Virus record (IMG/VR): IMGVR_UViG_3300045747_000054
Span: 62,001-126,000 of that record
DNA: 64,000 bases
Direction: 5' to 3' (one strand)
DNA from: a virus
The first letter of the stretch is position 1. The number at the start of each line of letters is the position of its first letter. Positions 1,632 through 54,891 of the stretch are shown one piece after another. The notes under the pieces were generated by a model, which saw only the letters and a list, made by a program, of their open reading frames with translations, was not told where the DNA came from and made no database searches. The position numbers and the translations under genes are program-made.

Positions 1632-2359
1632 TCCACAATCTCCCATTTGCCATCATGATGTTCCACAAGTGCTGTGCAACTTTCTACCCAATCTCCATCA
1701 TTCATATACTCTACGTCATTTATCATCTTGATTGCTGGATGATGAACGTGTCCACATATCACTCCATCAGCATGTTTCTTTTTGCAATAGTCTGTGATTA
1801 GATCTTCGAAATCATTCAAATAAGATAGGGCTTCCTTTGTCTTATTTTTCAGGTATGCACTGAGACTCCAATAAGAAAGACCTAATGCGCTGCGGATCTT
1901 CTGTAGAAGGTTATTGACTCTGAGTAACTGTTCGTATACAAAATCTCCGACATGGTATAGGAATTTCAAACGTGTTCTCAATACTCCATCAAACAAATCC
2001 CCATGAATAACCATGTATGTTTTTCCGTTCACTGCTTTGTAGCGGAAGTGATTATATAGTTCTATATTTCCAAACGAAAATGGAGAGAGCATACGAAAGT
2101 CTTCATCGTGATTTCCAGTAATATAGACAACTCTAGTATTTCTTTTAGATGCTGTAAGAAACCTACGAATTACATTGGTGTGTGATTGTCTCCAAAAGAA
2201 TTTTCTACGAAGTCTCCAGCCGTCAATAATGTCTCCTACTAAAAATAGATTCTCGCTTGTGTTGTGTTTGAGAAAAGAACAGAGTTCTTCGGCTTTACAA
2301 CCTCTGGATCCTAAGTGGATATCAGATATGAATATGGACTTATACTTCGTTGTCAGCAT
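1610..2359 (-). CDS. Calcineurin-like metallophosphoesterase (LpxH/UDP-diacylglucosamine hydrolase type)
   Basis: A two-metal phosphoesterase. The family motifs appear in order: DIHLGS, GDIIDGW, GNHDEDF, HGDLFD and GHVHHP. This layout, with the RLRRKFFW stretch after GDIIDGW, matches the LpxH-like subgroup that hydrolyses UDP-sugar-lipid or related phosphodiesters, but phage substrates are not known. The ATG at 2359 overlaps the primase stop (ATGCTGA). A GTG at 2368 in the same frame is an alternative start; GGAG lies only three bases before the ATG. It sits beside a glycosyltransferase, so a role in glycan or lipid modification is possible but inferred. Confidence 0.85.
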   Translation of the reverse strand: MLTTKYKSIFISDIHLGSRGCKAEELCSFLKHNTSENLFLVGDIIDGWRLRRKFFWRQSHTNVIRRFLTASKRNTRVVYITGNHDEDFRMLSPFSFGNIELYNHFRYKAVNGKTYMVIHGDLFDGVLRTRLKFLYHVGDFVYEQLLRVNNLLQKIRSALGLSYWSLSAYLKNKTKEALSYLNDFEDLITDYCKKKHADGVICGHVHHPAIKMINDVEYMNDGDWVESCTALVEHHDGKWEIVEWLLRKE

Positions 2360-3411
2360 TTTCTCCACTCTGCGAACTTGAGCTTCGCTGTTAGACCTTG
2401 AAAAGTATTCTCGCGGATAATGTTCATCACTTCACTCTCACTCATACCATTCATGATCATTTCATTCACATCTTTATAGGGTATATCATTCGGGAACAAT
2501 ACAACTGAATGGTCATTCTCGATGGCACGGTTTATTTGTTTTACAATCTCTTTATTTCGTGGCTCGGCATCATAAACTAAAACACACTCACTGTCGGAAA
2601 GAAAGTCTGGAACAGCACATAGATTACTATCGCCGCTGGCAACACTATTTTCCACGAAGTAAGAGTCGAACTGACCTTCCAAGACGTAGACTGTTTCTTT
2701 GGGGAGCAACCTGTGCAAGCCGAACAACTTTTTTTCATCTAGCACCTTTACTGTGATATACCTGATTTTCGATTCGCCCAATGCTCTACCAGCTACATTC
2801 GTAATTTCACCTTTCGAGTTAGTATAACACAGAACAATACGATCATCGTTTGGAACATTATCCTTGCCGTGATCTTTGAATGTATTGTCTAGGAAATCCT
2901 TGAACTTGTTAGTATAGAAAATCTCTTTCCAGAACTTCTCTGGAATCTTTCTCATGCGAATGTATTGAACAGCAAAATGTTCTGCTGGTAGTGTATCTAG
3001 GCTCCCAAACACATAGTTACCTGCACTTTTGGAAAATATATTTTGCAGTGTAACAGTATCTTGAAATGCTTCTGTTGGTTTCCTGCCACCCTTAAGATCG
3101 ATTATGGGTTTCTCGTAATTTGAGCGATTATTGTCACCAGAACTATAACGATCAAGGCAATATTGTGAATATTCCTGTTCATCGATGTGCTTTAATAGTT
3201 TGGGGAAAGTTGTTCCCGTTTGACAATTGTGACATGTGTAAAAATAGTCATTATTCTTACGAAATACATAGCCACGGGCTTTCGTGCGGTTCTTCTGTGA
3301 ATCTCCGCAAATAGGGCATGAAAAGTTATATAAATCGTTCTTCTTTTCTTTGAAGTTACGAAGACGACTGGATATTTTCAATAGGTAAGTTCTGTCTAAA
3401 AAGACGGACAT
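2353..3411 (-). CDS. 61: DNA primase, T4 gp61-like
   Basis: Makes RNA primers for lagging-strand synthesis together with helicase gp41 (gene at 19970-21361). The N-terminal zinc ribbon has CPICGDSQKNRTKARGY followed by CHNC, closely like T4 gp61. The TOPRIM catalytic core follows, with VYVLEGQFDSYFV and then CVLVYDAEPRNKE. At 352 residues it is the expected size. The stop overlaps the start of the phosphoesterase gene. A sigma70-type promoter lies just upstream (3447-3475), so this looks like the first gene of an early operon running left through thyX. Confidence 0.93.
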   Translation of the reverse strand: MSVFLDRTYLLKISSRLRNFKEKKNDLYNFSCPICGDSQKNRTKARGYVFRKNNDYFYTCHNCQTGTTFPKLLKHIDEQEYSQYCLDRYSSGDNNRSNYEKPIIDLKGGRKPTEAFQDTVTLQNIFSKSAGNYVFGSLDTLPAEHFAVQYIRMRKIPEKFWKEIFYTNKFKDFLDNTFKDHGKDNVPNDDRIVLCYTNSKGEITNVAGRALGESKIRYITVKVLDEKKLFGLHRLLPKETVYVLEGQFDSYFVENSVASGDSNLCAVPDFLSDSECVLVYDAEPRNKEIVKQINRAIENDHSVVLFPNDIPYKDVNEMIMNGMSESEVMNIIRENTFQGLTAKLKFAEWRKC

Positions 3412-8833: not shown

Positions 8834-11563
8834 TTACTGGCTTCTGGTTGTCAGTGTTGGTTCTACATCAACGGCATGTGCCTTTGATCCAGTTGCAGTA
8901 CGTCCACGCTTGTTTCCGAGATACTTCCTTCTCATTCTGGACTTGGTGCCTTCATCCTTCTCGCCAACCTTTAGTTCTTCTTCCACAGTCTCTTCCTTCA
9001 CGATTTTGTGAAGATGCTGGTGGAACATACGAGCAGTAGATCCTGGTGCAGTCTTGGACTTACGATATCCTAGTTCCTTCGCAAAGTCATGAAGACGCTG
9101 GACCTGATCTGATCTTAGGGTATGGAAATCCACTCCGCGTGAACCAGACTTTTCTAGAGCGGCTTCTGCTTCTGGCTTTGTAATTTTGGATTCTTCGACC
9201 TGTTCTACATCTTCGTTAGTTCTTGGTAATGCTTTTCCAGTTTTTCTATCGATCTTAGTACCATGCATAAGTCTTGCAACAATACGAGTTCCTAGACGAT
9301 CTATTGGACCTGTAGAATTAGCATGAACTTTTTCCCATGCCTTATCATCTTTTTTTACACTATCCACAGACTCTCCATAAGTTCTGCCTCTTCCCATAGA
9401 AGCACCCATCATTCCTACGAAATCACCCATGTGACTTCCACCGAATGACTTACGGTTATCCTGTGCTGCCGCCATGATCTCACCACGCTTGTGCTTCTCG
9501 GCGGCAGTGGCGATGTGTGACAATCTGCTCTTCTTTTCGGCATCAGAAAGTTCTGGCTTCTTGACAGTCTTTCCTGCCTGTGTCTTGGAGATCGTAGTCT
9601 TCTCGGCTGGCTTCACACCAGAACGTGCTGCAAGTCTTGCTTGCATTGCCTTGGAAAGCTTGCCACGCATTAGAGTTGCACTCTTGTTTCCGAAACGTGA
9701 TGCTTCGTGAATTCCACTAGCAATATCATCATACTTGCTTGCTGCCTTATTATGTGATCTTATCTTCTTTCGATCACTCTCTGATGGCTTAGAAAATTCA
9801 TGATCCATACGAATCTCTTTAGCAGCATAATCGTGATCTGCTGCACGGGAATCAGCAACTTTCTTGCCGTAGAATGGTAGGAATTTTCTCTTTAGCCTTT
9901 CAACACCTTGAGCCTCTGATAGTTCCTTAGAATGAATGTTGTAATAGGATGTTCCATGATTGTGTGTGATCACAACATGATCTTTACCATGCATACCAAT
10001 GCTATTTGGAGTATGACCAGCAGCAGATACTTCATCAAGTTCCACTTCCACACCTTCTCTGGTATAATACTTTCCAGTATGCTGATTGTATTCATAATCT
10101 CCAGTACGTGGAGCCTTATCTGATTCTTTTGGTTCGTCTCTCTTGATTTCTGTCTTTGCAAGTGCCTTGATCTTCTTCTTGAAGAACGAGAAACCTTCAT
10201 CAATATGGTTTACATCGTGTTCATATCCATGTGTCTTTAGTGTATGGAATACGTCATGACCATCACGCTTTTCCTTAGCCGCAATCATGTGATGATACGC
10301 AGAAACTTTACCAGGTCCGCGAGATCCCTTACTCACATGGAATGTGGTTAGATATGGGTGAGTATGAACTTCAATCTGGTGAAAATTGTCACTGTGCTTT
10401 GTGTGACTATATGTTGATGTGTTTCCATTAAAACGATTGCGAACATGGCTGGCTTTGAATACAGGATGCTTGATCAATGCTCTGAATATAGCCTTTGGAA
10501 CTGCATCATGAAGTTCTCTGTCAGTATTCAGTTTTACTGCTTCTGGTCTTTTGTATGGTTCGATTGATTCGTTGATTGCTTCATTATTTTCATGATCATA
10601 GGAACCAACACGAACATGCTTGCCATCAACAACCTTTAGTGCGCGTGTTGTCTTTGGAGATTCTGGATCATCACTTTTGAAAACCTTAGCACCTTTCTTT
10701 TCCATTTCTTTTCGCCATGTATCATGATCTTCGTTCACCTTGATCTTCTTTGCGAGCTTCTTGTTGGCTTTCCAAAGACCAGAGATTCTTGTGCCAATCT
10801 TCTTGGTTGGAGTATTCTCTGCATTGGTCTTTTCAATATAGGACTTTAGAGTACCTTTTGAGAGTTCATCAAGATTTTCTTCTGCCACTCTAGTAACAAC
10901 ACCATTCTTGATGGTTACTGGATTGCCATTGTGATCTGTCATGGTGTGCTTGATCTCGCCTTTATGAGAAACGACAGCCTTCACTGTCTTCGCGTATTGC
11001 TTGTTCAAGATCTTTGCGGTATCTTTTTTCATCTTATCGGCAGAAATAAGCTTTCCCTTCTGAGGCTTTCCCTTATACATGTCGTCGTCTTCGCGAGTTC
11101 CTTTGTATCCTTCTGAGTCATATTCAAGGACAGTTTCTTCAGCTATTCCATGTATCTGATTTTGAATATGATCTACTTCATTTACTGGTTTCTTCACACC
11201 ATTGATGATATCTCTCAAAGAACGAGGATCATATGGCTTCTTCTTTGGGCGAGTTGTTCCATCTTCATGACCCAATTCATGATTTAATTCAGATCTTTTG
11301 AAATTACTGCGACTCTTGCCGAATACATCACCACGATTTGCACCCCATGCTTCTGCTACAGGACGCTCCAACTGCTTTCCACCATTTCTTCTGTAATGCA
11401 ATACAGTAACGGCATCGTTGACCTGATCAGCATATTTTGAGTGTGCCGCACGATCACCCATTCCGTGGGCATTGTATCTTGCTTCACCAGCATCTTTTAT
11501 GATGTAGTGAAGTTCTGCGTCTGACTTGCTGTGGTATGGATGACCTTTTAGTGGTGTTCTCAT
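8834..11563 (-). CDS. Giant predicted internal head polyprotein
   Basis: 909 residues, very rich in Lys, His, Ala, Ser and Glu, with few long hydrophobic stretches. The N-terminus (MRTPLKGHPYHSKSDAELHY then a DAGEARYNAHG helix and VLHYRRNGG) is a compact module of its own. gp21-type (I/L)-x-E sites recur along the chain: IAE 140-142, LDE 231-233, then INE, IDE, LDE and LSE, usually at breaks between modules. LDELSKGTLKSYIEK at 231-245 is the same cassette that is repeated three times in the next upstream gene. I infer a prohead polyprotein cut into several packaged pieces. No enzyme motif is recognised. Confidence 0.8.
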   Translation of the reverse strand: MRTPLKGHPYHSKSDAELHYIIKDAGEARYNAHGMGDRAAHSKYADQVNDAVTVLHYRRNGGKQLERPVAEAWGANRGDVFGKSRSNFKRSELNHELGHEDGTTRPKKKPYDPRSLRDIINGVKKPVNEVDHIQNQIHGIAEETVLEYDSEGYKGTREDDDMYKGKPQKGKLISADKMKKDTAKILNKQYAKTVKAVVSHKGEIKHTMTDHNGNPVTIKNGVVTRVAEENLDELSKGTLKSYIEKTNAENTPTKKIGTRISGLWKANKKLAKKIKVNEDHDTWRKEMEKKGAKVFKSDDPESPKTTRALKVVDGKHVRVGSYDHENNEAINESIEPYKRPEAVKLNTDRELHDAVPKAIFRALIKHPVFKASHVRNRFNGNTSTYSHTKHSDNFHQIEVHTHPYLTTFHVSKGSRGPGKVSAYHHMIAAKEKRDGHDVFHTLKTHGYEHDVNHIDEGFSFFKKKIKALAKTEIKRDEPKESDKAPRTGDYEYNQHTGKYYTREGVEVELDEVSAAGHTPNSIGMHGKDHVVITHNHGTSYYNIHSKELSEAQGVERLKRKFLPFYGKKVADSRAADHDYAAKEIRMDHEFSKPSESDRKKIRSHNKAASKYDDIASGIHEASRFGNKSATLMRGKLSKAMQARLAARSGVKPAEKTTISKTQAGKTVKKPELSDAEKKSRLSHIATAAEKHKRGEIMAAAQDNRKSFGGSHMGDFVGMMGASMGRGRTYGESVDSVKKDDKAWEKVHANSTGPIDRLGTRIVARLMHGTKIDRKTGKALPRTNEDVEQVEESKITKPEAEAALEKSGSRGVDFHTLRSDQVQRLHDFAKELGYRKSKTAPGSTARMFHQHLHKIVKEETVEEELKVGEKDEGTKSRMRRKYLGNKRGRTATGSKAHAVDVEPTLTTRSQ

Positions 11564-11567
11564 TTGA

Positions 11568-12797
11568 TTATTCCTTCGCCTTCTTTTCTTTGTTTTTCTT
11601 CAGTGCTCTGCGAGCAAGATCACGGGCAGCGGACATTCTGGTGTGTTTTGCACCAGACTTATCTGTGATTGTATCAGGAGTGCGCTTGTGCCATCCAGAA
11701 TCCTTCATCCATTCGGCAACCTGACCAAGCTTATTAGTCTTCTTGGTCTTCACTGGTGCTGGAAGAGTTGCAGAGTAATCATTATTACTAGTGTTTCCAC
11801 CACTTAGATTATCTTCCTTGGTGAGTTCTTTCTTCTTCTGGCTATTGATTTCACGCTTCGCAGAAGCAAACATTTTTGCTTCTTTCTTTTCCTTGGCATA
11901 CTTCGCCTGAACTTCTGGTGGATTCCAAGAAACACTTTTCTTGACTTCATCAAGTTCTTCTCTATCGCCTCTATATGGCTTCTTATTTCCAAGAAGCTTA
12001 TCTCCTGCTGTAGCAAGACCTTTATATCTTTTTTGTGCCTTATTGATATGGTTGTCCCATTCTCCTTTACTCTTCGCAGTGTTCAAAGCAGACATATGAT
12101 TTGTTAAATCTTTGCCAGCCTTATCACGATATGAAACAAGTGTGGACTTCTTGAGTTCATCAATCTGAACTTCTTCCTTGGCAAGCTTTCCAGCAGCCTT
12201 CTTGATTCCCTGAACACGCATGAATGCCTTATGATCTTCCTTCTCTCCATCATCCTTGCCTTTCTCGTCATCTACATGAAGATGGAGTGCGTGCTTCCAG
12301 CCACCTTCTGATGCCTTGTCTACGGCACTATCTGATGCCTTCTTGATATACGAAGCAAGTGTAGACTTATTGAGTTCATCAATCTGAACTTCTTTCTTAG
12401 CAAGTTTATCAACTGCCACATGAACACCATGAAGTCTCTTGTCTGCGATATCAGCGTCTTTATTAGAAAGTTTTTCGTTGCCCCTCTCTGAATGTCTAGC
12501 AGAAGACGCAAAGTGGTGTACTGCATCTCGCGCCGCTGCCTTTGCATATGAAGCGAGTGTGGACTTCTTGAGTTCATCAATAGATTCTACATCTTCCTTG
12601 ATGTGACTGGTGGCAGCATTCAAGTGACTTGGCTTGCCAAAATGAGGATCTGCACAGGTTGCAACCACTCTGTTTACCATAGAGTTATCCGCATGTGGTT
12701 CTGTAGGCTTATAGTCATTCAGTTTTGCTGGATGTTCTGCCATGCATTTTGCGGCTGCATCTGCAATTGATCTATTTGTCTTTGAGAATATATTCAT
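11568..12797 (-). CDS. Repeat protein with three IDEL-K-STL-SY cassettes, predicted internal head polyprotein
   Basis: 409 residues. Three near-identical cassettes are at 73-88 (IDELKKSTLASYAKAA), 139-154 (IDELNKSTLASYIKKA) and 212-227 (IDELKKSTLVSYRDKA), with a weaker LDEV at 282-285. Each begins with an I-D-E gp21-type cleavage site and follows an acidic linker ending EVQ or DVES. Between them lie about 50 residues of charged helical sequence. The C-terminus is very basic. This suggests a polyprotein processed by the prohead protease into basic peptides. It is in one operon with the 909-residue protein. Confidence 0.8.
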   Translation of the reverse strand: MNIFSKTNRSIADAAAKCMAEHPAKLNDYKPTEPHADNSMVNRVVATCADPHFGKPSHLNAATSHIKEDVESIDELKKSTLASYAKAAARDAVHHFASSARHSERGNEKLSNKDADIADKRLHGVHVAVDKLAKKEVQIDELNKSTLASYIKKASDSAVDKASEGGWKHALHLHVDDEKGKDDGEKEDHKAFMRVQGIKKAAGKLAKEEVQIDELKKSTLVSYRDKAGKDLTNHMSALNTAKSKGEWDNHINKAQKRYKGLATAGDKLLGNKKPYRGDREELDEVKKSVSWNPPEVQAKYAKEKKEAKMFASAKREINSQKKKELTKEDNLSGGNTSNNDYSATLPAPVKTKKTNKLGQVAEWMKDSGWHKRTPDTITDKSGAKHTRMSAARDLARRALKKNKEKKAKE

Positions 12798-12800
12798 TTC

Positions 12801-13322
12801 TTATTCGCCTTTGAGTGTGGATTCGATCATCCATTCTAGTTTTTTGTGTGCGTCGATACGATCCTGTAGGAAATTCGACAATCCGACTTCTTCTGCATGT
12901 TCTGCTAATTCGAAACATTCTTTAAGGTTATACAGAAACACCTTATTATCAAATTCTAGTCTGTTCAAGAGTGTTACGGCACCAGTTCCACCTAGATTTC
13001 CTTCAATCGTGGAAAGATTCAAAAGATCCTTGATGTAAAGAGGAACCAGACCATTGATGATACGAATGCGTTCCGCAATGTCATCAAGTTCTTCATAAAC
13101 CTGAGTATAGACCTTCTCAAAGAATGAATGATACTGAGGGAAGTTGGATCCAACTATATTCCAGTGTGCCGAGTGGGCATCATAATAGAACACATAGCCA
13201 TTTGCAAGAAGAACTTTTAGTCTTTCAATCAAATGTGCGCGTGGGTCTGGAGTGAATGCCATAGCAGTTTCTACTGCTTCCTTCATGCTCTTGTTGATCT
13301 TGTTTGCGCTTAAGTAATTCAT
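12801..13322 (-). CDS. Dps/ferritin-like protein
   Basis: A Dps-family miniferritin, which in bacteria oxidises and stores iron and binds or shields DNA. The ferroxidase pattern is present: H53 in SAHWNIVG, H65, E69, D80 and E84 (LDDIAER), corresponding to E. coli Dps H51, H63, D67, D78, E82, with Asp-to-Glu at the third site. 173 residues is the normal Dps length. It has no canonical packaging leader. It sits between the internal-protein block and a P-loop protein, so a role in protecting incoming or packaged DNA is plausible but inferred. Confidence 0.9.
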   Translation of the reverse strand: MNYLSANKINKSMKEAVETAMAFTPDPRAHLIERLKVLLANGYVFYYDAHSAHWNIVGSNFPQYHSFFEKVYTQVYEELDDIAERIRIINGLVPLYIKDLLNLSTIEGNLGGTGAVTLLNRLEFDNKVFLYNLKECFELAEHAEEVGLSNFLQDRIDAHKKLEWMIESTLKGE

Positions 13323-13326
13323 GGTA

Positions 13327-14475
13327 TTATCCTATCTCTTCTGTTCTTATTTTTGTCGAGATCTTTTCTCTGAGTTTATCAAAGGAAGTTCCCTCGGCAG
13401 TCTGTCCCCAAGGTCCGACTAGACCAGAGTTACCAAGATTTACAGTATTGTAGAGTGGCTTGAGTTCGGTAGACCCCGGAAGAAGCTTCTTCTTTTTGAT
13501 CTTTTCGGCTTCTGCTACACTAGAAACACCCATAGATCCAACTGCAACAGAACCCGCTCTGTCATAGTTGGATGGTGTGTTGGTTACTTTGGCGACTTTT
13601 TTGGTGCCTTCTTTTTTGCTGCCGACTTTTTCTTCGCAGACTTCTTCTTTGGCTTTTTTGATGGAATTTCTAACGTGTCTATGTAATCCTTCTGCTGCGT
13701 AGGTTCTCTCGGAAGTTGAAGCGTTTGCAACACTCGTTCCTCCAGTTCTCTCAGTGGCTGGATTCTGTCCACACTTACAAGCCCCATTGCACGTTTTGCA
13801 GCGTGGCTTAGTTGCTTCATCAGCTTCTTGATAGGTTCTAACATTGTTTGTTCCTTGACCTGGTGTTATTGCTTTGGCAAATGCGGCAGTTTCGTCCGTG
13901 CCTACTTCCAACACACGTTCTGCAATCCATGCTAGTGCAGCTTCATTCTTAGGCATCTTTGAAAGAAATGCAGAGACAGTTTCTGTCAACTCTAACAGCC
14001 AACTTGCTATCTCTTTATTCTTCTGTTCGTTTACGTTTGAGAAGTTATTGGAATTATCGTAAATAGCAAAGGCATCAAACATCTCAGTGAATTGATGAAC
14101 GTTTGATAATGCACATTGATATTTATGCTTACGAACACTCTCATTAAATGTTTTTGCACCGCGTGATATCCTCTTGTCATTTCTACTCTTTGATTCCTCA
14201 TCGGTGGTATACACATAGATCATTGCAGTGTCATAACCCATAGATTCTAGGACTGCCTTGGATACGAGAACCTTATCTAGATTCTCTGCATTTCCATTGA
14301 CAATGACTGATGGAAAGCTATGCAATTCTTCAATGTTTGTTCCTTTAACAATGGCATTGAAAACTCTCTCCATAGAAACTTCTTTCAGATTATGCTCGTT
14401 TAGAGTCGAGTGAATGAGAAAGTCCTTCCCACTCCCTGGTCCGCCAACGAGGAATATTGCTTTAAAGTGATTCAT
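13327..14475 (-). CDS. P-loop kinase-like protein with long Cys-containing C-terminal region
   Basis: Walker A GGPGSGKD at residues 11-18, followed by a small NTPase domain of about 150 residues with TTDEESKSRNDKR typical of nucleotide/polynucleotide kinase or zeta-like folds. Residues about 175-382 are of different character: CKTCNGACKCG (C226, C229, C233, C235) may bind zinc, then a Ser/Gly/Lys-rich tail. IAE near residue 184-186 is a possible gp21 site. No packaging leader. The gene overlaps the CTS nucleotidyltransferase gene by 4 bases. A polynucleotide 5'-kinase role would fit its ligase and phosphatase neighbours but is not proven. Confidence 0.75.
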   Translation of the reverse strand: MNHFKAIFLVGGPGSGKDFLIHSTLNEHNLKEVSMERVFNAIVKGTNIEELHSFPSVIVNGNAENLDKVLVSKAVLESMGYDTAMIYVYTTDEESKSRNDKRISRGAKTFNESVRKHKYQCALSNVHQFTEMFDAFAIYDNSNNFSNVNEQKNKEIASWLLELTETVSAFLSKMPKNEAALAWIAERVLEVGTDETAAFAKAITPGQGTNNVRTYQEADEATKPRCKTCNGACKCGQNPATERTGGTSVANASTSERTYAAEGLHRHVRNSIKKAKEEVCEEKVGSKKEGTKKVAKVTNTPSNYDRAGSVAVGSMGVSSVAEAEKIKKKKLLPGSTELKPLYNTVNLGNSGLVGPWGQTAEGTSFDKLREKISTKIRTEEIG

Positions 14476-15932
14476 TTTCTTTTAACCGATAGTTTACCAG
14501 ATTTCATTGCTGTTTGAATTTTCGACATATGCTGTTGAGCTTCTTTCTTAGTAAAGGCAGATCCCAAATGTTTGTGGAAAGTATTTAGATCACCAGCAGA
14601 AGCTGCTGTTCGCATCTTGGTTCCAGACATTCCGTGACTTCTCTCTGAATTTTCTGGAGTATGAACATGAACCTCGTCAAAATGCTTGCCGTGCATTTCT
14701 TTGATTTTTCCGGCAGCAAGAGAGTGCTTCAACTTCTCGGCAAAATCCAGTCTATCCGCTCCGACTAATAGGTGTAGGACTTTCTTACCAGTCTTTGGAA
14801 GAGATGCATGTGCTGCGGCAATCGTCTCTCCACCAGACTTTACTACATGAGTATTTAGATCCTTGTGTCCCCATTGTTTATGGAGTATATCTGATCTTTC
14901 TTTTGGTGAATACAAGTCAGACTTGGATGATATTCCAATATGCTTTGTACCGGGAAGTTTCTTCATTGCTCCACCCAAATCTAGAGCATGACCCATGTGC
15001 GAAATAGGAGAAAATCCAGTCAATGGAACTACTGATGTATGATGTACTTCATCTGATTCTTTGATTAGGTCTTTTGTACCCAATGTTTTCTTCAAGTGCT
15101 GTAGGGCAGCGGTGTGATCACCTTTCTTCTTTCCCATGTCATCCTTGAATTTATCATAGATTTCTTGATGACGGCTAGGATTTATATGCTTCTTGATTAG
15201 GTCAGAGACTCCAACGAAAGAATGTACCTTCTTGTGGTTTGCATCTTTTCCGAATAGAGTGTGTGAAACTTCATCAGGATCATTTGTGCCGGGCTTGGAT
15301 TCATCGGTTCTTGAACGAAGTCCGTGAGTGATAGAGAATTTATGGACACTTCCACCTGCCGCATTCAAGAGTGTCTTGTGGTGCATTCCCTTAATACCAT
15401 GCTTGGTATCTTCCCAACTAGAACTGTGAGCAAACTGTTCACCTTTTGTTGGCTCGTCCTTGTGGTAATCTGCTGCTTCGAAATCGAACTGGTGATGGGC
15501 ACCATTATTATGCCTCATTACTGCCGACACTTCATTGCCATGTTTCTTAGTACCGACTACAGTATAATTACCAAACTTCTTACCTGTGGTAAGGTGCTTG
15601 GCAAGTGCTTCTTTGTGTTCTTTTGGAATCTGAGCGTCGATGTCACCAGTATTTGGCTTGTGGTGTGCATATTCTGCATCTGGAATGTGTTGATTCATCA
15701 AATGCTTGGTTGAACCGGCAAACGCCGATCCTGAGAATAATGCCTTCTTACCTTTTCCGAAAAGGTGTTCGCCGTGTTCTTTATGAAAAGAATCGTGTAT
15801 CGCGCCTAGTGTTTTGTGAATTTCAGCGGCAGTGCCATCTCTTGATTTTTCAGTGACATGAATTGGATCGGCACCTACTGCGCCAATTTTTATATTGCCA
15901 CCTTCTTTTAGAAATTGCTTAAATGTATACAT
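14472..15932 (-). CDS. Two-domain nucleotidyltransferase with capsid-targeting leader
   Basis: 486 residues. Leader MYTFKQFLKEG has an L-K-E|G gp21-type site. Residues about 55-160 look like a Pol-beta-type nucleotidyltransferase: GSAFAGST at 68-75, GDID with D97/D99, and a later FDFE. Residues about 298-450 look like a HIGH-superfamily nucleotidylyltransferase: HMGH at 312-315 and SGTKMR at 436-441 (the ISSTxxR-type motif). Between them I-K-E|S at 290-293 is another gp21-type site exactly at the domain boundary, so maturation could release two enzymes. Substrates are unknown. The gene overlaps its neighbours by 1-4 bases. Confidence 0.8.
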   Translation of the reverse strand: MYTFKQFLKEGGNIKIGAVGADPIHVTEKSRDGTAAEIHKTLGAIHDSFHKEHGEHLFGKGKKALFSGSAFAGSTKHLMNQHIPDAEYAHHKPNTGDIDAQIPKEHKEALAKHLTTGKKFGNYTVVGTKKHGNEVSAVMRHNNGAHHQFDFEAADYHKDEPTKGEQFAHSSSWEDTKHGIKGMHHKTLLNAAGGSVHKFSITHGLRSRTDESKPGTNDPDEVSHTLFGKDANHKKVHSFVGVSDLIKKHINPSRHQEIYDKFKDDMGKKKGDHTAALQHLKKTLGTKDLIKESDEVHHTSVVPLTGFSPISHMGHALDLGGAMKKLPGTKHIGISSKSDLYSPKERSDILHKQWGHKDLNTHVVKSGGETIAAAHASLPKTGKKVLHLLVGADRLDFAEKLKHSLAAGKIKEMHGKHFDEVHVHTPENSERSHGMSGTKMRTAASAGDLNTFHKHLGSAFTKKEAQQHMSKIQTAMKSGKLSVKRK

Positions 15933-16894
15933 TACTTACTTCTCGACTTGAATTTTTCTTTGTTTGAAGAATCGGCTTTATAGTCTCTGAACGTTTGTGA
16001 AGTGACCTTGAATCTTGGAGCATCTGCGTTCTTTTCAGAAGGATGAACTACAAGACCCTCAGTTCCAGAACCCCACTTTGGTTTGATGCTCTTGGATGCA
16101 ATATGACTGTCAACTTTATGAGATACTGCATGTTTGATTTGATCAAACTTGGCTACCTCTTTCATCTTCGCTTCTTTATTCGTCTTTGTCGTTCTTGATC
16201 TCAACAAGGTATGATCCAGTTTTTGGAATTTACTATGCTCGTCTTTGACACTGACATGGGATTGTTTGTGTTCGATCTTGTCATCATCGAAATTCATCTC
16301 ACTATTAGATAGGTGCTTCTTGTGATGTTCTATATCGACATGTTGGTTTTCTGGAAGCTTGGAATGAATTACGTACTTACCGACACTTCCCATGTGATGT
16401 GGATGATACGAGGTTCCTACGAACTTGATTTCATCTTTATGTTCTTCAGAAGGTCTTGAAAGTGGCTTGTAGAATGCCTCACCTTTGACTTTGACTTCCT
16501 TGCCGGTTCTGTGATATTCAGACTTCAAATGATGCTGTAATGCCTTATTATTGAGAAGTGTAGAATGAATGTGAGCAAAGGCATCGGCAGCGGTCGAATC
16601 ATATGGCTTACCAGTCTCTTTTGCTCTCTTCTTTGCTCTGTCATGAAAATCAGATGGTTTTCTCATTTTCTCTGACCCGGATCCAGAACTTTGAGAATAA
16701 AATCCATGTTCATCATGACCAAACTGGTGAGTCATTCCGTCAGTTTTTTCGGTAACATCATGAACATGAACTTTTCCACCTTTTACAAGGTTTCCAAATT
16801 GCTCATGAGACATCGAATGAATATGAGGTAAACCCTGTCTGATAGACTCAGACAAGACTTGGTTTTCTGATAGGAATGTCTTGAATGTCTTCAT
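15932..16894 (-). CDS. Nucleic-acid-ligase-like nucleotidyltransferase with capsid-targeting leader
   Basis: 320 residues from the ATG at 16894, which overlaps the upstream stop (TAATG); an in-frame ATG at 16915 would add seven residues before the leader and is unlikely. Leader MKTFKTFLSEN carries L-S-E|N. The covalent nucleotidyltransferase motifs are visible in order: motif I EKTDGM with Lys50, KGEAFY at 138-143 (motif III-like), EGLVVH at 279-284 (motif IV) and RFKV at 294-297 (motif V). This suggests an ATP-dependent DNA or RNA ligase. The chain is unusually His-rich. Substrate is unknown; packaging is inferred from the leader. Confidence 0.8.
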   Translation of the reverse strand: MKTFKTFLSENQVLSESIRQGLPHIHSMSHEQFGNLVKGGKVHVHDVTEKTDGMTHQFGHDEHGFYSQSSGSGSEKMRKPSDFHDRAKKRAKETGKPYDSTAADAFAHIHSTLLNNKALQHHLKSEYHRTGKEVKVKGEAFYKPLSRPSEEHKDEIKFVGTSYHPHHMGSVGKYVIHSKLPENQHVDIEHHKKHLSNSEMNFDDDKIEHKQSHVSVKDEHSKFQKLDHTLLRSRTTKTNKEAKMKEVAKFDQIKHAVSHKVDSHIASKSIKPKWGSGTEGLVVHPSEKNADAPRFKVTSQTFRDYKADSSNKEKFKSRSK

Positions 16895-17418
16895 TACATC
16901 TTTTCTATGTGCCAACGAACACGACCTTTGCGAACCTTTTTTTCTGGCTTGTCTGCTGAGAACATAACCTTTCTCTTTTTACCTAATAGAGCATTCTGAA
17001 CATGAGGATAGTCAGCAGGATTCTGTGGCTTTCTTCTTGCTTCAAAGATTGCTCTGTTTGCCTTGGCATAGTTTCTCATGATCACGCCAGCCTGACTGTT
17101 TGCTTCATTCTCAATGTCACTTCCAGTTGCTCCAGAATCGTGTTGGATACGATTATCTAGGTTCTGTTTGTGATGCACTAATTCGTGTGCAAGAGTCCTG
17201 AAAACGTCGGCAGTATGTCTTCCTGCAATGTTCACTTTGATAGAATGGTCACTCGGAGAATAACCACCAAACGATGCATTCTCCTGTGCATGTTCCTTGT
17301 CGTCTACAAGTTCAATGCTTGGAGGATTATCCAGACCTAGATGATTGCTGGCAAAGCCCACAAAATGATCAAGATGATCATGCACGGACTCGTTTAGATA
17401 TTGCTTGAATGTTTTCAT
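16894..17418 (-). CDS. HExxH zinc metallopeptidase-like protein with capsid-targeting leader
   Basis: 174 residues. Leader MKTFKQYLNES has L-N-E|S. The zincin motif HELVH is at 78-82, followed by HKQNLD, with a downstream SDIENEANSQAG helix (Glu103/Glu105) that could give the third zinc ligand as in gluzincin/DUF4157-like peptidases. The C-terminus is basic. It could process a host or phage protein after injection; the target is unknown. The gene overlaps neighbours on both sides by one base, so it belongs to the same operon as the ligase-like and HAD proteins. Confidence 0.8.
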   Translation of the reverse strand: MKTFKQYLNESVHDHLDHFVGFASNHLGLDNPPSIELVDDKEHAQENASFGGYSPSDHSIKVNIAGRHTADVFRTLAHELVHHKQNLDNRIQHDSGATGSDIENEANSQAGVIMRNYAKANRAIFEARRKPQNPADYPHVQNALLGKKRKVMFSADKPEKKVRKGRVRWHIEKM

Positions 17419-17603
17419 TACATCTTCTTGTATGTTTTCTTCTTGGCTACGCTTTTTCCAATAACAGTATTAGGTCTGTCTTCCGGCTTTGCATTTGCGT
17501 AATCATCCCAATGCTTTTCGTTTTCTCTGGCGCGTGCCATAAAAGCGTTCCACTTGGCTGTCTTGGATGATATTTCTGCTATGATCTCTTTATATGTCTT
17601 CAT
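17418..17603 (-). CDS. Short internal head protein with T4-like capsid-targeting leader
   Basis: 61 residues. MKTYKEIIAEI is the closest match in the window to the T4 internal-protein leader (MKTYQEFIAE), with I-A-E|I as the predicted cut. After cleavage a basic 51-residue peptide would remain, ending KKKTYKKM. Similar in size and charge to T4 IPI-type proteins that are injected with the DNA. No other function is recognised. Confidence 0.75.
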   Translation of the reverse strand: MKTYKEIIAEISSKTAKWNAFMARARENEKHWDDYANAKPEDRPNTVIGKSVAKKKTYKKM

Positions 17604-17604
17604 A

Positions 17605-18228
17605 TTATTCCCTATGGACTTTCACATGTCCATCGTGCTGGACATGAAATGCGTGAAACTTGACTTGTGGATGGTGCTTCTGTAATCCAAGAAAATGGTT
17701 TAGATTTTCCTTACTATCGTCATACAAAGACACTTTCTTGTACTTACCAGTATTTAGGTGATGGTGAATTATATCTGTTTTACGTTCGGCTACGGATTTG
17801 CCACCATCAGAGTTACCTGCACGATAGACATGGCTTCGATCTATGTCGATTCCATGCTTACGGAATTTGTCTAGGAACTTGTGTTTGTCATCGAAATCAG
17901 CACGGGCAGTGTTGATGATGACATGGTGGTTTGGCTTATCCTTGATGTTATTGTGGATAGCCTTGAACTTCGCAATCATGCCGTGAATAGGATCGGAAGT
18001 TTTATGGAAATGGTCGGCATTACGGAACTCATGGTAATCGTAATGGTGTCCAGCAGGTAGCTTATGAGTGTTATATTCCTGATTTGACAGGGCAGCTACG
18101 TGTTTGTCTCCATGCATGACATGGACTTTGGCATGGGTTCGAAAGAGGGTTTCATCGACATCGAAAACGTGCAGGTGTCCTGCATTTTCGGATTGATTTT
18201 CTTGTAAAAAGGCTCTAAATGTTATCAT
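17605..18228 (-). CDS. HAD phosphatase with capsid-targeting leader
   Basis: 207 residues. Leader MITFRAFLQEN has L-Q-E|N. HAD motifs: FDVDETLF with D23 and D25, NTAR (T107), Lys150 in ERKTD, and LYDDSKEN with D170/D171. This is the arrangement of small HAD phosphatases including polynucleotide 3'-phosphatase domains. Very His-rich, like the adjacent ligase-like protein. It is the first gene of the packaged-enzyme operon. The 53-base gap upstream holds a weak late-promoter-like CCTAAATA (around 18262-18269) and GGAGG. Substrate is unknown; an end-healing role alongside the ligase-like protein is inferred. Confidence 0.85.
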   Translation of the reverse strand: MITFRAFLQENQSENAGHLHVFDVDETLFRTHAKVHVMHGDKHVAALSNQEYNTHKLPAGHHYDYHEFRNADHFHKTSDPIHGMIAKFKAIHNNIKDKPNHHVIINTARADFDDKHKFLDKFRKHGIDIDRSHVYRAGNSDGGKSVAERKTDIIHHHLNTGKYKKVSLYDDSKENLNHFLGLQKHHPQVKFHAFHVQHDGHVKVHRE

Positions 18229-18281: not shown

Positions 18282-19265
18282 TTATATGATTTGACGGAAC
18301 AAATATCGATGGCTGGAGTACCACTCGATAGTCTTTTCAATACCTTTACTGAAAAATGTCTTAGAATACCAACCCAAACCTAATTCTATCTTTGTGGTAT
18401 CTATGGCATATCGAAAATCATGCCCCTTTCGGTCTTCTACAAAATCTATCATATCGTGTGAAATTTCAAGATAATTTAGAATATACTTTGCGATATCCAA
18501 ATTAGTCTTCTCTTCTTTTCCACCGATATTATACTTATCTCCAATCCTACCTTCCAATAAAACTTTGATAAGAGCATCACAGTGATCTTCTACATATATC
18601 CAATCACGAATATTGGCACCGTTTCCATACACAGGAATCTTTTCACCTCCGAGTGCCTTTAAAATTACTGTAGGAATGAACTTTTCCTGATGTTGAAAAG
18701 GACCATAATTATTGGAGCAATTAGTAATAATTGTCTGAAGACCGTGTGTATGTCGATATGCGTTTACCAGATGATCTGATGCTGCCTTTGAGGCTGAATA
18801 TGGTGATCTTGGATCGTATGGAGTTTGTTCTGTAAATGGTGGATCTTCAAGTAAGAGAGAACCATATACTTCATCTGTAGAGACATGGAGAAACCTATAA
18901 TCCCAAGTTACGTATTTACGAATGCAATCCAGTAGGTTCATTGTTCCCATCACATTGGTTTTAATGAAAGGAGAAGAATCATTGATCGAACGATCAACGT
19001 GGCTTTCGGCAGCGAAATTGATGATCATTTCTGGCTTGTATTTTACAATAAGATCACGTACTAATGCATGTGATCCAATGTCACCAACACATTGCTTATA
19101 TCTTCTATTGGTGATAAAGCGTTTATGAAGTTCATCCACACCCAGATTTGCTGCATACGTTAGCTTGTCTAGATTGATAATTGTTTCGTCTGGAAACTGC
19201 TTTGCGAAATTTATGATAAAATTGGTGCCAATAAAACCACACCCGCCAGTAATTAATATAGTCAT
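18282..19265 (-). CDS. rfbB: dTDP-glucose 4,6-dehydratase
   Basis: Converts dTDP-glucose to dTDP-4-keto-6-deoxyglucose, the first committed step towards dTDP-rhamnose and related sugars. Rossmann motif GGCGFIGTNF at the N-terminus, then NFAAESHVDRS, STDEVYGSL and the catalytic YSASKAASD, all as in RmlB/RfbB. 327 residues is full length. No other rml gene is in the window, so the product would feed host enzymes or genes elsewhere on the phage. Five predicted glycosyltransferases in the window are possible users. Confidence 0.93.
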   Translation of the reverse strand: MTILITGGCGFIGTNFIINFAKQFPDETIINLDKLTYAANLGVDELHKRFITNRRYKQCVGDIGSHALVRDLIVKYKPEMIINFAAESHVDRSINDSSPFIKTNVMGTMNLLDCIRKYVTWDYRFLHVSTDEVYGSLLLEDPPFTEQTPYDPRSPYSASKAASDHLVNAYRHTHGLQTIITNCSNNYGPFQHQEKFIPTVILKALGGEKIPVYGNGANIRDWIYVEDHCDALIKVLLEGRIGDKYNIGGKEEKTNLDIAKYILNYLEISHDMIDFVEDRKGHDFRYAIDTTKIELGLGWYSKTFFSKGIEKTIEWYSSHRYLFRQII

Positions 19266-19969: not shown

Positions 19970-21361
19970 TTACACCTTTAGTGAACTGAACTTTGACTTG
20001 CCTCCACCGCCATTTCTTGGTGGAGGTGGATCATTATTTTGTCCTGAATCTGAAATACCCTTTTGTGCGCTCTGTTCGATATCATACAGTTTCATCTTGG
20101 ATCTGTCAACACCGATTGCGAACCTCTTATTTAGGGTCGGATCATTATAACGGTTTTTCAACTGCTTTACCATAATCTGATTCAGTTTTTCGAGTTCTTC
20201 ACTGGTTACTAGTGCAAACATCAAGTCTGCCGTTGCAGGTAGACCGAAAGATTCTGATGTATCTTCAAGACCCGGATCAGTGTTTGTAAATCCAGAACGG
20301 GTTGTCTGTGTCGCAGACATGACTGGAATCTTGAATTCCACTGCCAATCCACGAAGTTCTTCTGCAATTGCCTTAATGTAGGAATATGAGTTCACGTTGG
20401 CACCATGCTTCAATCGTGCCGAAGTACAAATGTTCAAATAGTCAATGAACAGGATATCTGGCTTGAAATGTTTCTTCAATGACAATTCGTTTATCAAATT
20501 ACGGAAATGGACTACACCAGCAGCCGCAGTTGGATATTCCTTGATAATCAGCTTACCCTTGATTTTCTCCTTTAGGCGTTCAATCTTACGATCATAGTCC
20601 TTCTGTGGAAGATTCATAAGATCTTCCAGCTTCACATTCATTAGGTTCGCATCGATACGTTCTGCGATCTTTTCTTCCGACATTTCTAGGGTAATATAGA
20701 GTACATTGAAGTTCTGTGCAAGACATGCTGCTGCATGGTGACACATGAACAATGACTTACCGACACCAGTACCCGCGAGTACGATGTTCAGTGTTTTCTG
20801 TGGCAAGCCACCCTTTGTGATTCTGTTGAAATAATCCAGATCGAATGGAATACGCTTCTCTTGCTTGTGGTAGTACTCGTATCTCTGATCCGCATTTTCG
20901 ATATAATCGTGACCGATATTTGGATCAAACGAAATAGACAAGGCTTCCGAAAGGATGCTAGGAATAGATCCCTTACCCTTTTCAGTCTTAGACTTGCCAT
21001 CCAGAATCTGAATAGACTCTAGGATGGCATTGTGAATTGCCTTCTCTTGACAGAACTTTTCAGTCTGTTCAAGAATCCAATCCGCTGGACTTGGCTCAAT
21101 CTCTTCCTTAAGTTCATCAAGTAGAATCTGGCACTTCTTGAAGTCTTCTTCATAAAGACCATCACGATTACCAAGTTCTATCTGAATTGCTTCATGCGTC
21201 GGAATCAGGTTGAACTTTAGAACGTACTTGTTTATTTCCTCGTACAGTATTCTTTCGCTTCTTTCCTGAAGATATTCGCTTTTTAGATACGGCAGGATCT
21301 TTCTTACGAACTGTTCGTTGAGGAACAAGTTCTTCAAAATAATCTTCTCTATCTTCTTCAT
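19970..21361 (-). CDS. 41: Replicative DNA helicase, T4 gp41-like
   Basis: Hexameric DnaB-type helicase that unwinds DNA 5' to 3' and recruits primase gp61. Walker A GTGVGKSLF with the preceding LNIVLA strand, Walker B LFIDYLNI, and the DnaB-family helices are all present; the N-terminal domain aligns with T4 gp41. 463 residues, full length. The ATG at 21361 lies well inside the upstream ORF (170-base overlap, other frame), and the ribosome site before it is weak (AAGAGA). Confidence 0.95.
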   Translation of the reverse strand: MKKIEKIILKNLFLNEQFVRKILPYLKSEYLQERSERILYEEINKYVLKFNLIPTHEAIQIELGNRDGLYEEDFKKCQILLDELKEEIEPSPADWILEQTEKFCQEKAIHNAILESIQILDGKSKTEKGKGSIPSILSEALSISFDPNIGHDYIENADQRYEYYHKQEKRIPFDLDYFNRITKGGLPQKTLNIVLAGTGVGKSLFMCHHAAACLAQNFNVLYITLEMSEEKIAERIDANLMNVKLEDLMNLPQKDYDRKIERLKEKIKGKLIIKEYPTAAAGVVHFRNLINELSLKKHFKPDILFIDYLNICTSARLKHGANVNSYSYIKAIAEELRGLAVEFKIPVMSATQTTRSGFTNTDPGLEDTSESFGLPATADLMFALVTSEELEKLNQIMVKQLKNRYNDPTLNKRFAIGVDRSKMKLYDIEQSAQKGISDSGQNNDPPPPRNGGGGKSKFSSLKV

Positions 21362-42521: not shown

Positions 42522-43256
42522 TTACAGTGAGGCTGGTGTAGAATCTGGCTTAGAAATAGGGATTTCTTCACTTGTGGTCTGACGCAGTGGTGGCGCGACT
42601 CGATCCTTAATAGTGATGACACTATTTGGAGTATTGAATTTCGAAGACTTGATTGTTCCTTTAGAACGATTCACAACATTTTGTGCTGCCTTCTGAATGG
42701 CAATCTGCTTATCCAATCTCTTGCAGTTACTTTTTACTTTATCCTTTGCGCGTTCCAAGACAGTCTTAGAAACCTTCGAAGTGAATACAATACCATCTAG
42801 ATGATCACGTTCATGTTGGAAAATTCTACCAGTGAGTCCACTGAAAGTTTCTTCCTTGACAAGACCGTTCCAATCCTGATAACGAACCTTTACTCTTTCT
42901 GGACGGTTGATAGAAAGGAACAATCCTCTGAAACTTAGGCAACCCTCTTCAAATCTATCATAGCCATGATACTCTTCTAGAATCTCTGGATTGAAACACG
43001 CGAATCCTACACCTTCGGCACCCATTACGAATACACGATATGGAAGACCAACTTGTGGTGCGGCAAGACCAACACCATTATTCTTTACCATTGTTTCTAC
43101 AAGAGATATACCAAGCTTCTTGGGATCTGTTGGTGGATTCTCGAAATCGAAATGTGGTGTAACTGTTTTCAGTACTTCTGAATATGGATCGACAAGATCC
43201 ATAATCTCGTACTCATACATCTCACCATCAACGAATTTGATTTTCTTTTCACTCAT
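42522..43256 (-). CDS. def: Peptide deformylase with C-terminal extension
   Basis: Removes the formyl group from nascent peptides. Motif 1 GVGLAAPQVG at 61-70, motif 2 EGCLS at 104-108, motif 3 FQHERDHLDG with H148, E149, H152. The core ends near residue 180; an additional 60-residue Lys/Ser/Pro-rich tail follows. Deformylase genes are known from cyanophages. The gene starts 1 base after gp46. Confidence 0.92.
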   Translation of the reverse strand: MSEKKIKFVDGEMYEYEIMDLVDPYSEVLKTVTPHFDFENPPTDPKKLGISLVETMVKNNGVGLAAPQVGLPYRVFVMGAEGVGFACFNPEILEEYHGYDRFEEGCLSFRGLFLSINRPERVKVRYQDWNGLVKEETFSGLTGRIFQHERDHLDGIVFTSKVSKTVLERAKDKVKSNCKRLDKQIAIQKAAQNVVNRSKGTIKSSKFNTPNSVITIKDRVAPPLRQTTSEEIPISKPDSTPASL

Positions 43257-50446: not shown

Positions 50447-51811
50447 TTACTTCAAGTTGCTTACGATAAACTTGCGGTAGTAGAGGTTGCTGTTGTTGCT
50501 CAATGCGCCTGAACCCTGTGTGGTTCCCTGTGCGAATGGATTTGCAACGATTCCGTAACGGGTCTTGAAGCCAATCTTTGGCTGGAAGGTGTTAGGATCG
50601 ATTGCACGAACCATCTGTAGAGGAACGTATGGGCAGTAGAACAGACCAGCATCATACGCGACCGCACCCTTGTATCCGACGACGACATAATCTGCGCCTG
50701 ATACTGAGTATGGATCAACATAGACCTTTAGGCGACCGAATAGAACACCTGCGAAGGTATTTCCAGTGTCGTCAACCTGTAGACCAGTGTTGTTGCTTAG
50801 TGCTGAGTTGTAGTCAAGAAGTCCGCTCATCGCAAGGGCTGATGCCACATCGGTTGATGTGATGATGATGTTGCCCTTTCCACGACGAGTATCTTTCGCG
50901 ATCTTGTTAGCTTCACGCTCGATCTGGAAGATAAGACCCTTGTACTTTTCTACCTGCCAACGACCATCTGTATCTAGACCTGTTGCTAGGTTAAATACGC
51001 CCGGTGTGTTGGAGAACGCTGCGCCCGGCTTTGCAGTTGCATACACGGTGCGGACGACTTCACGGTTGATTTCAGCAAGAACTTCTGTTGAAAGAATATT
51101 TGCCAATTCCGTTTCTGCGTCTAGACCATGAACTGCCTTCAAGTCCTGTGCAAGTTCTAGGGTGTAGGATGCTGCTAGCGCACGGGTGTTTGCTGTTACA
51201 GTAACCTTTTCGATTGAGAAGCCCATCTGGTTCATTGTTGTACCAACGGATAGACCTTCACCAGTTCCGGTGTCGAATCCTTCACCAGTGTTCGCTAGAC
51301 CGAAGATAGAAGCATTGCTTGTACCTGGGTTAACGTTCGCATCAGGGTTGTTACCCGCAGTGAATGGTGATGTTGCGCCAGTACCAGAGAATGATACGTT
51401 TGCTTCGTTGTAGAACGCTTCTGGAGTTGCTGATCCTAGTGCTGCGCTTGTTGCGTTAGCATAGGTTGAGCGCATCGCGAAGATAAGACCTGTTGGACCA
51501 GTCATTGGCTGAACGCCGCAGATGTCATATGCCATTAGGTTAGGTAGTGAACGACGAACTAGGCTGATTAGGATTGGATCGAAACCGGCTACTGGACCAC
51601 CAGCAGTTGCTCCACCACCATATCCGCCCGCGCCTACGAAGTTGGATCCACCAGCTTCTGCAAGGATACCTGCTTCTTCACGAAGAGCGCGTTCCTGATT
51701 TTCTAGGACAATCGCAGTAACGGCACGGCGATATGGGTCAGTGATCTTAGCCATATCAGCGTGGTCCAATACTGGTGCCCACTTCTTTTGAATTGTTTCT
51801 GAGAGATACAT
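50447..51811 (-). CDS. 23: Major capsid protein gp23
   Basis: Forms the capsid hexamers. The N-terminal 52 residues are a propeptide: the first Gly-rich segment after LAE (residues 50-52) fits the gp21 cut AGIL-AE|AGG. Then MAYDICGVQPMTGPTGLIFA and SYTLELAQDLKAVHGLDAE are gp23 blocks. 454 residues (T4: 521, larger insertion domain). It is followed by a strong terminator, as in T4. Confidence 0.96.
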   Translation of the reverse strand: MYLSETIQKKWAPVLDHADMAKITDPYRRAVTAIVLENQERALREEAGILAEAGGSNFVGAGGYGGGATAGGPVAGFDPILISLVRRSLPNLMAYDICGVQPMTGPTGLIFAMRSTYANATSAALGSATPEAFYNEANVSFSGTGATSPFTAGNNPDANVNPGTSNASIFGLANTGEGFDTGTGEGLSVGTTMNQMGFSIEKVTVTANTRALAASYTLELAQDLKAVHGLDAETELANILSTEVLAEINREVVRTVYATAKPGAAFSNTPGVFNLATGLDTDGRWQVEKYKGLIFQIEREANKIAKDTRRGKGNIIITSTDVASALAMSGLLDYNSALSNNTGLQVDDTGNTFAGVLFGRLKVYVDPYSVSGADYVVVGYKGAVAYDAGLFYCPYVPLQMVRAIDPNTFQPKIGFKTRYGIVANPFAQGTTQGSGALSNNSNLYYRKFIVSNLK

Positions 51812-54420: not shown

Positions 54421-54891
54421 TTATATGGTTGTTGTAAAATCAACAACTTTCTTAAAATCTTGTGGAGAATTTCCCATCTGTCCTAAATTCTGCTTATTTC
54501 TCTTGTTCACCTTGCCGTGCAGATCGACAATATTCTTTGCAGTCGATGGTTGTACAGTCGCAGTGGTTCCATTTGCAAACGTCACAATTCCAGGCTTATC
54601 CTTCTTCATGATTGCTCTTAAAGACTGGACAATGGATTCATCAATCACAATTTGCAATGTATTTAGATCTTCTTTAACAATAGAACCATACCCTACTTTT
54701 CCACCAGACCCGGAATCTGGAAAGTATGGAACACTGACATCAAGGTTCATCTTGTCATTTCTGTAAAGAGCAACCTTGGCACCAGTAGGATAGTTACGAA
54801 TACCCAAACGTCTCAATACAATCATAGCAGGAGGATCAGCCGCAGGGACTGCCTCATTTAATTCCTGAATGTATTGAGAGAATGTTTTCAT
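54421..54891 (-). CDS. Internal head protein with capsid-targeting leader
   Basis: 156 residues starting MKTFSQYIQELNEA, with I-Q-E|L and L-N-E|A sites. The mature part is a mixed alpha/beta domain (MIVLRRLGIRNYPTGAKVAL; GIVTFANGTTATVQPS), of unknown fold, with a basic KVNKRNKQN stretch. It follows the prohead genes, so it may be a core protein as well as an ejected one. Confidence 0.8.
   Translation of the reverse strand: MKTFSQYIQELNEAVPAADPPAMIVLRRLGIRNYPTGAKVALYRNDKMNLDVSVPYFPDSGSGGKVGYGSIVKEDLNTLQIVIDESIVQSLRAIMKKDKPGIVTFANGTTATVQPSTAKNIVDLHGKVNKRNKQNLGQMGNSPQDFKKVVDFTTTI

Follow-up and report, generated by a model that had tools for sequence, protein, structure and literature searches.

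Enzymes with T4-type capsid-targeting leaders in a T4-like phage: a possible packaged RNA end-repair set

We examined a 64,000-nucleotide stretch of viral DNA, hereafter the window (positions 62,001 to 126,000 of IMG/VR record IMGVR_UViG_3300045747_000054), which is part of a 178.7-kb virus record and carries T4-type core genes for DNA polymerase, primase, terminase, portal, tail sheath, tail tube, gp21, gp22, and gp23. The genes in question form a minus-strand run flanked by a primase gene (2353-3411) and a helicase-like gene (19970-21361) that is, by inspection, close to gp41 of relatives. A preliminary description had named four open reading frames (ORFs) here, for a ligase-like protein, a HAD phosphatase, a two-domain nucleotidyltransferase, and a P-loop kinase-like protein; all four were found on the minus strand in a single tightly packed run. 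That description had also assigned a packaging leader to three proteins. The leader is real, but the number was too low, as a T4-type leader occurred on five consecutive genes (14472-18228), two of which, encoding a peptidase and a 61-amino-acid protein, it had not mentioned. The run comprises the following genes.

17605-18228, minus strand: HAD-superfamily phosphatase of 207 amino acids (aa), leader MITFRAFLQE followed by N (18199-18228); assigned by catalytic motifs and phrog_415.
17418-17603, minus strand: 61-aa ORF, leader MKTYKEIIAE followed by I (17574-17603); from the leader scan.
16894-17418, minus strand: zincin-like metallopeptidase (HELVH, an HExxH motif), leader MKTFKQYLNE followed by S (17389-17418); weak matches to M91 and a phage metallo-protease profile.
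15932-16894, minus strand: ligase-like covalent nucleotidyltransferase of 320 aa, leader MKTFKTFLSE followed by N (16865-16894); from alignment, AlphaFold2 (AF2), and Foldseek.
14472-15932, minus strand: two-domain protein POLB-CT, with an N-terminal Pol-beta-type nucleotidyltransferase (POLB) and a C-terminal HIGH-type adenylyltransferase (CT), leader MYTFKQFLKE followed by G (15903-15932); from alignment, AF2, and Foldseek.
13327-14475, minus strand: leaderless P-loop kinase-like protein of the AAA_33/zeta type, ending in a long tail of low complexity; Zeta_toxin E 6e-6, AAA_33 E 5e-4.

Each of the five leaders has F or Y at position 4 and [LI]xE at positions 8-10. Leader residues F/Y4, F/Y/I7, L/I8, and E10 agree with the positions in T4 IPIII where mutagenesis located targeting (mainly 4 and 7) and processing (8 and 10), the T4 protease gp21 cutting after L/I-X-E (PMC9026906). 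A scan of the window and of the stretches covering the remainder of the record showed six proteins to have the strict leader where their genes are expected to start, namely these five and one encoded near gp21. Chance was rejected as the origin of the leader, because the pattern fits 0.064% of proteome positions in the record, predicting about 0.2 matches over about 260 gene starts against the six observed, and it occurred at 1 of 923 internal methionines. The ligase start was set to the ATG at 16894, and a TTG at 16915 was rejected, because the ATG supplies the leader; with this start the motif I lysine is residue 50, as it had previously been numbered. Homologues of gp21, gp22, and gp23 (phrog_207, phrog_237, and phrog_138) are all encoded by the same phage, and the LAE|A in gp23 is consistent with an L/I-X-E specificity of its protease. 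The leader is very probably a T4-type capsid-targeting sequence that would bring the tagged enzymes into the capsid. The corresponding head genes are listed below.

53031-53675, minus strand: gp21-type prohead protease, which is predicted to process the leaders; matched phrog_207 (head maturation protease) at E 4e-74.
54421-54891, minus strand: leader-bearing protein (MKTFSQYIQE), probable prohead-core or head protein near gp21; leader scan and a weak phrog_696 match, E 0.007.
50447-51811, minus strand: gp23 major capsid protein, LAE followed by A at residue 52; phrog_138 and motif scan.

Relatives were drawn from scans of viral contigs, comprising locus L001, further relatives of the ligase, the nucleotidyltransferase, and the HAD protein, and 80 loci of the family DUF6267 (PF19782), and domain models were run over all loci. 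The ligase and nucleotidyltransferase of L001 are 82% and 84% identical to those of the window. Across the relatives, the leader was present on 172 of 251 module ORFs and on 41 of 626 other same-strand ORFs (odds ratio 31), counts that refer to homologous sequences and not to independent events, so that the p-value overstates independence. The strict leader was carried by 69 of 80 DUF6267 proteins (two of the 80 being open at a contig end), 12/12 DUF6267-CT fusions, 31/42 HAD proteins, 6/6 peptidase-HAD fusions, 13/25 CT-kinase fusions, and none of eight kinase-only proteins. The separate kinase in HTVC008M (L063) and in L029 has a leader-like start that ends in LKE right before the domain. 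A leader universal to the module was rejected, as it is missing on DUF6267 of S-CAM1 and S-SM1 and on most kinase-only proteins. No homologue of the 61-aa ORF was found among the relatives' loci examined. Also encountered was a second leader-bearing family that recurs among the loci, its members measuring about 300-385 aa and having no module domain (L025 5933, L031 761, L044 on the minus strand, and 20 others); it is another candidate packaged protein.

Published proteomics bear on packaging in relatives. Mass spectrometry detected the S-SM1 citidylyltransferase T4-GC190 in purified virions (Sullivan et al., PMC3037559), the NMNAT-like ORF91 in virions of S-SCSM1 (PMC9602691), and ORF154 in those of S-CREM2 (PMC10665884). 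In the sequence records these proteins begin with MKKFSAFLNE, MKSFLQFLKE, and MKNFSSFLTE, respectively, and among the 69 S-SM1 coding sequences tested in two stretches, the leader occurred on GC190 only. A leader-bearing homologue of one module component has been detected in virions of three relatives; for the phage of the window, packaging is predicted. Gene order links these phages further. In the Kyanoviridae S-CAM1 and S-SM1 the order is DNA polymerase, UvsX, gp41, DUF6267, cytidyltransferase, and gp61, and HTVC008M has polymerase, UvsX, helicase, DUF6267, and cytidyltransferase, the primase lying outside the stretch examined. In the window, as in S-SM1 and S-SCSM1, the adenylyltransferase gene lies between gp41 and gp61, with DUF6267 as its neighbor in S-SM1, whereas the S-CREM2 cytidylyltransferase follows uvsW and a late sigma factor and not gp41. 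NTP_transf_2 matched S-CREM2 ORF156, which was likewise found in the virion, with a score exceeding the Pfam cut-off. Also among the virion proteins published for S-CREM2 (record OR473000, 7704-10313) are one named CRISPR-Cas9 nuclease and a SAM hydrolase.

In a 10-sequence alignment of the ligase-like protein, K50, D52, G53, E139, E279, G280, and K296 were invariant, and the ten homologues carried the EKxDG of motif I, the motif III acid, the EG of motif IV, and the motif V lysine. Sequence profiles searched against solved structures returned only noise for the ligase, the HAD protein, and the nucleotidyltransferase, and folds were therefore judged from AF2 models and Foldseek. The top PDB match of the ligase model (pLDDT 79.5, pTM 0.75) was the Naegleria RNA ligase (probability 0.99, E 3.7e-3, TM-score 0.37), followed by other RNA ligases, DNA ligases, capping enzymes, and the Pnkp ligase; the listed matches were all ligases or capping enzymes. 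TM-scores were low (0.2-0.4), and the assignment is therefore one of fold and not of family. The preliminary description had made its reading depend on an active-site pocket around K50, and the alignment, AF2, and Foldseek place K50 in motif I of an adenylation fold, so that this condition did not overturn the reading. As modeled, the protein has the ligase/capping adenylation-domain fold with all catalytic motifs. Further structural matches of the model were a cytidyltransferase-fusion protein and unnamed phage proteins of about 400 aa. For the window ligase and HAD protein, tblastn against named phages returned no relatives. In DUF6267 proteins (L030, L031, L044, L046, L057, and others) the KxDG and QGD motifs are invariant and an EG motif is conserved, and on this basis DUF6267 looks like an unannotated covalent nucleotidyltransferase. 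The KxDG motif is common to the window ligase and DUF6267; membership of the window ligase in that family was rejected, since profile-profile comparison (hhalign) with DUF6267/phrog_455 gave a probability of 7%.

The HAD protein matched phrog_415 'polynucleotide kinase' at E 2e-7, with relatives down to 5e-13. It contains the complete motif set of T4 Pnkp-type HAD domains (DxDxT, [ST]xR, K, DD), represented by D23 and D25, the TAR of T107 and R109, K150, and D170/D171, all conserved over 19 relatives. POLB-CT matched phrog_3041/395 cytidyltransferase and was modeled with a pLDDT of 86.6. Alignment identified S69, D97, D99, and D150 in POLB, where GS, DxD, and the third Asp were invariant in seven sequences, and H312, H315, and SGTKMR in CT. 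By Foldseek, the CT half matched CoaD and NadD (probabilities 1.00 and 0.99) and the POLB half weakly matched FAM46C and Cid1; we infer from its residues that POLB is a Pol-beta nucleotidyltransferase. POLB homologues occur in Campylobacter, Vibrio, and Xanthomonas phages. In the latter two they lie near adenylyltransferase genes and near proteins whose KxDG and EG motifs were read by eye; of these only the Vibrio adenylyltransferase has profile support, the Xanthomonas one being named by its record annotation.

In relatives the same domains are shuffled and fused, as ligase-POLB-CT, ligase-CT, DUF6267-CT, CT-kinase, and peptidase-HAD proteins, and the leader follows the polypeptide: split domains have one each and fused domains one in common. 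In L025, POLB-CT is split into two genes, each piece with its own leader; in L024, ligase-POLB-CT is fused under a single leader; and in L001, L059, L060, L062, L093, and L096 the peptidase is fused to HAD at an IFE, again with a single leader. The joints themselves carry the protease motif [LI]xE, which was found at 6/6 peptidase|HAD joints (as IFE), 23 of the 25 CT|kinase joints (in the relatives where the kinase homologue is fused downstream of the adenylyltransferase), 6/7 POLB|CT joints, and the one ligase|POLB and one ligase|CT joint. The background was 5.7% of 14-aa windows within domains; the linker windows measured 18 aa, so this comparison is slightly generous, and the linkers are homologous. 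A motif at every fusion joint was rejected, DUF6267|CT having it in only 1/12. The window has one such site between fused domains.

15057-15065, minus strand: putative internal gp21 site, IKE followed by S (residues 290-292, ending at E292), between POLB and CT, at the place where L025 is split.

These joints suggest that the prohead protease processes the fusions as polyproteins. Similarly, the unfused peptidase of the window keeps an IFE near residue 125, where relatives fuse HAD, and cleavage at this motif in the prohead may remove its C-terminal tail.

We propose that the enzymes of 14472-18228 would be loaded into the prohead through the T4-type leader, released by the gp21-type protease cutting after [LI]xE, which would probably also separate fused proteins, here POLB-CT, into their enzymes, and injected along with the DNA. 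During the first minutes of infection, the injected set would most likely process cleaved RNA and rejoin it: HAD would take off 3′ phosphates, the Pol-beta nucleotidyltransferase would restore lost nucleotides, and the ligase would seal, with the leaderless P-loop kinase being supplied after infection. The leader, the protease, the folds and catalytic residues, the conservation of the module, and the virion presence of one leader-bearing homologue in three relatives are supported by sequence, structure prediction, or relatives, whereas we infer injection in this phage, polyprotein cleavage, an RNA substrate, and the role of each enzyme. End repair is a plausible function, and we give the model as a whole about an even chance. 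A narrower version, in which T4-like capsids carry a pre-made RNA (tRNA) repair machine, partly from protease-cut precursors, that reverses anticodon-nuclease damage before phage gene expression, is more tentative and somewhat less probable than the general one. The phage has five tRNA genes. RloC removes the wobble nucleotide, which could defy simple sealing (PMC2610378), and, in RNA repair sets of jumbo phages, which combine ligase, Pol-beta nucleotidyltransferase, kinase, and HAD, the RlaP nucleotidyltransferase is predicted to restore nucleotides lost at anticodon cleavage (PMC7824862).

The module resembles several known systems in part. Like the T4 internal proteins (IPI, IPII, IPIII, Alt), its products have a short N-terminal leader with key residues 4, 7, 8, and 10, gp21 L/I-X-E processing sites, and a gp21/22/23 setting; T4, however, packages small inhibitors and an ADP-ribosyltransferase, whereas here there is a multi-enzyme set with cleavage motifs also between fused enzymes. 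As in the T4 tRNA repair pair Pnkp and Rnl1, a HAD phosphatase, a P-loop kinase, and a covalent ligase-like protein are encoded together. Unlike that pair, the proteins are separate, so that 5′-kinase and 3′-phosphatase lie on different genes and not on one polypeptide as in T4 Pnkp; all but the kinase are leader-tagged, Pol-beta and adenylyltransferase domains are added, and arrival with the DNA is predicted. The jumbo-phage sets share the composition of ligase, Pol-beta nucleotidyltransferase, kinase, and HAD, but the window POLB is missed by the Pfam RlaP model, and the available text does not describe packaging for those sets (PMC7824862). The cyanophage virion cytidylyltransferase/NMNAT-like proteins (S-SM1, S-SCSM1, S-CREM2) are HIGH adenylyltransferases with the same leader, detected in the virion there, whereas the leader, ligase fold, cleavage, and POLB and HAD partners are not described in the available text of the cyanophage reports. 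The Naegleria gruberi RNA ligase (Rnl5-type) is the closest solved structure to the window ligase model; it has an additional N-terminal domain.

The capsid leader, gp21, the leader-bearing homologues in cyanophage virions, the ligase fold, the phrog_415 match of HAD, and the composition of the set support part of the earlier proposal of packaged end-repair activities, and several observations weigh against it. The kinase-like protein is untagged, its domain beginning at the very N-terminus (MNHFKAIFLVGGPGSGKD). In the secondary structure predicted for the 320-aa ligase model, neither an OB fold nor a C-terminal domain can be seen. Roughly 50 residues precede K50 and 25 follow motif V, apparently too few for an OB fold, which might instead come from a partner. 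Neither Pfam RNA_ligase (PF09414) nor RlaP (PF10127) had a match in the genome, the ligase-like protein and POLB included. The standard Pnkp/Rnl heal-and-seal scheme offers no role for CT, whose presence in virions is better supported than that of any other component. DUF6267 lacks the leader in S-CAM1 and S-SM1, and packaging of the ligase-like partner is therefore not universal. Finally, the authors of the cyanophage reports themselves allow for carry-over in CsCl purification (PMC9602691, PMC10665884).

Ranked second after RNA end repair, and a real rival to it despite being unlikely, is a packaged set of NAD+/nucleotide-cofactor enzymes, in which CT would be an NMN adenylyltransferase working with a NadR-like P-loop kinase (nicotinamide riboside kinase plus NMNAT), NAD+ would be restored at entry against NAD+-depleting defenses or to prime host metabolism, and the ligase and HAD would serve nucleotide chemistry. 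CT has the CoaD/NadD fold and some distant relatives weakly match NMNAT, CoaD, and NadR models, but the window POLB-CT matches no NMNAT or NadR NCBIfam model. The CT-kinase fusions have the NadR layout; the cyanophage proteomics papers name the proteins NMNAT-like and propose NAD+ synthesis (PMC9602691, PMC10665884), and NAD salvage by a HIGH nucleotidyltransferase and a P-loop kinase is on record for jumbo phages (PMC7824862). However, no NadV/NAPRTase was found in the genome, and this explanation does not account for the Pol-beta domain or for the CT-fused ligase-like proteins of relatives.

Packaged DNA-end or genome repair, healing and sealing nicks or breaks made by restriction enzymes in incoming DNA or joining genome ends, is improbable. 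DNA is a possible substrate of a covalent ligase, a nucleotidyltransferase, and a HAD phosphatase, DNA ligases are among the structural matches, and T4 IPI exemplifies a packaged protein that acts on a defense against incoming DNA (PMC9026906), yet the best structural matches are RNA ligases and no DNA-binding domain was seen. The phage, moreover, encodes a separate canonical DNA ligase of replicative type elsewhere, and the packaged ligase therefore has another job. Nothing pointed to the genome-end sealing raised in the preliminary description, which was dropped as unsupported.

It is still less probable that the leader is real but the proteins serve as structural internal proteins or act within the prohead core, their enzyme folds being relics. 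The probable prohead-core or head protein at 54421-54891 has the same leader, the gp22 scaffold has many LxE sites, and neighboring long ORFs are repeat-rich; the family alignments, however, show little or no variation at the catalytic residues of the ligase, HAD, Pol-beta, and HIGH domains, which speaks for activity under selection. Equally improbable is small-molecule synthesis or sugar or protein modification after injection (nucleotide-sugar or AMPylation) with the adjoining GDP-mannose/dTDP-glucose dehydratase-like gene (18282-19265) in the pathway, for although HIGH nucleotidyltransferases and epimerases co-occur in phage sugar pathways (PMC7824862), this epimerase has no leader, is not at the same position in the L001, HTVC008M, and S-CAM1 regions, and leaves Pol-beta and ligase unexplained.

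Other genes of the window are recorded here. Two long basic ORFs (8834-11563 and 11568-12797) contain repeated DEL..STLxSY motifs, and charged repeat proteins like them, annotated as virion proteins, adjoin the module in S-SCSM1 (L149). A Ferritin/Dps-like gene (12801-13322; PF00210, E 6e-17) belongs to the same run and has no leader, and a similar protein occupies the same position in L001. The dTDP-glucose/GDP-mannose dehydratase-like gene adjoins HAD, and L001 has none at that position. A peptide deformylase is encoded at 42522-43256 (phrog_2890, E 1e-36).

What appears new is the leader linking internal proteins, RNA repair sets, and virion cytidylyltransferases, each of which is already known, together with the ligase fold and the joint motifs. 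A literature text search found no paper with DUF6267 and none joining capsid targeting, nucleotidyltransferase, virion, and phage, which is weak evidence of absence, as most subscription journals lay outside the search. Among packaged T4 proteins, those whose function is known are an inhibitor and a transcription modifier. The widespread DUF6267 (at least 471 named phage records) would gain a suggested function from a set of leader-tagged enzymes, which would also explain the repeated finding of cytidylyltransferase in cyanophage virions. The model predicts that virion proteins will have N-termini newly formed after [LI]xE and that the mature enzymes will show repair activity, and the leader would provide a sequence rule for predicting injected enzymes in T4-like phages.

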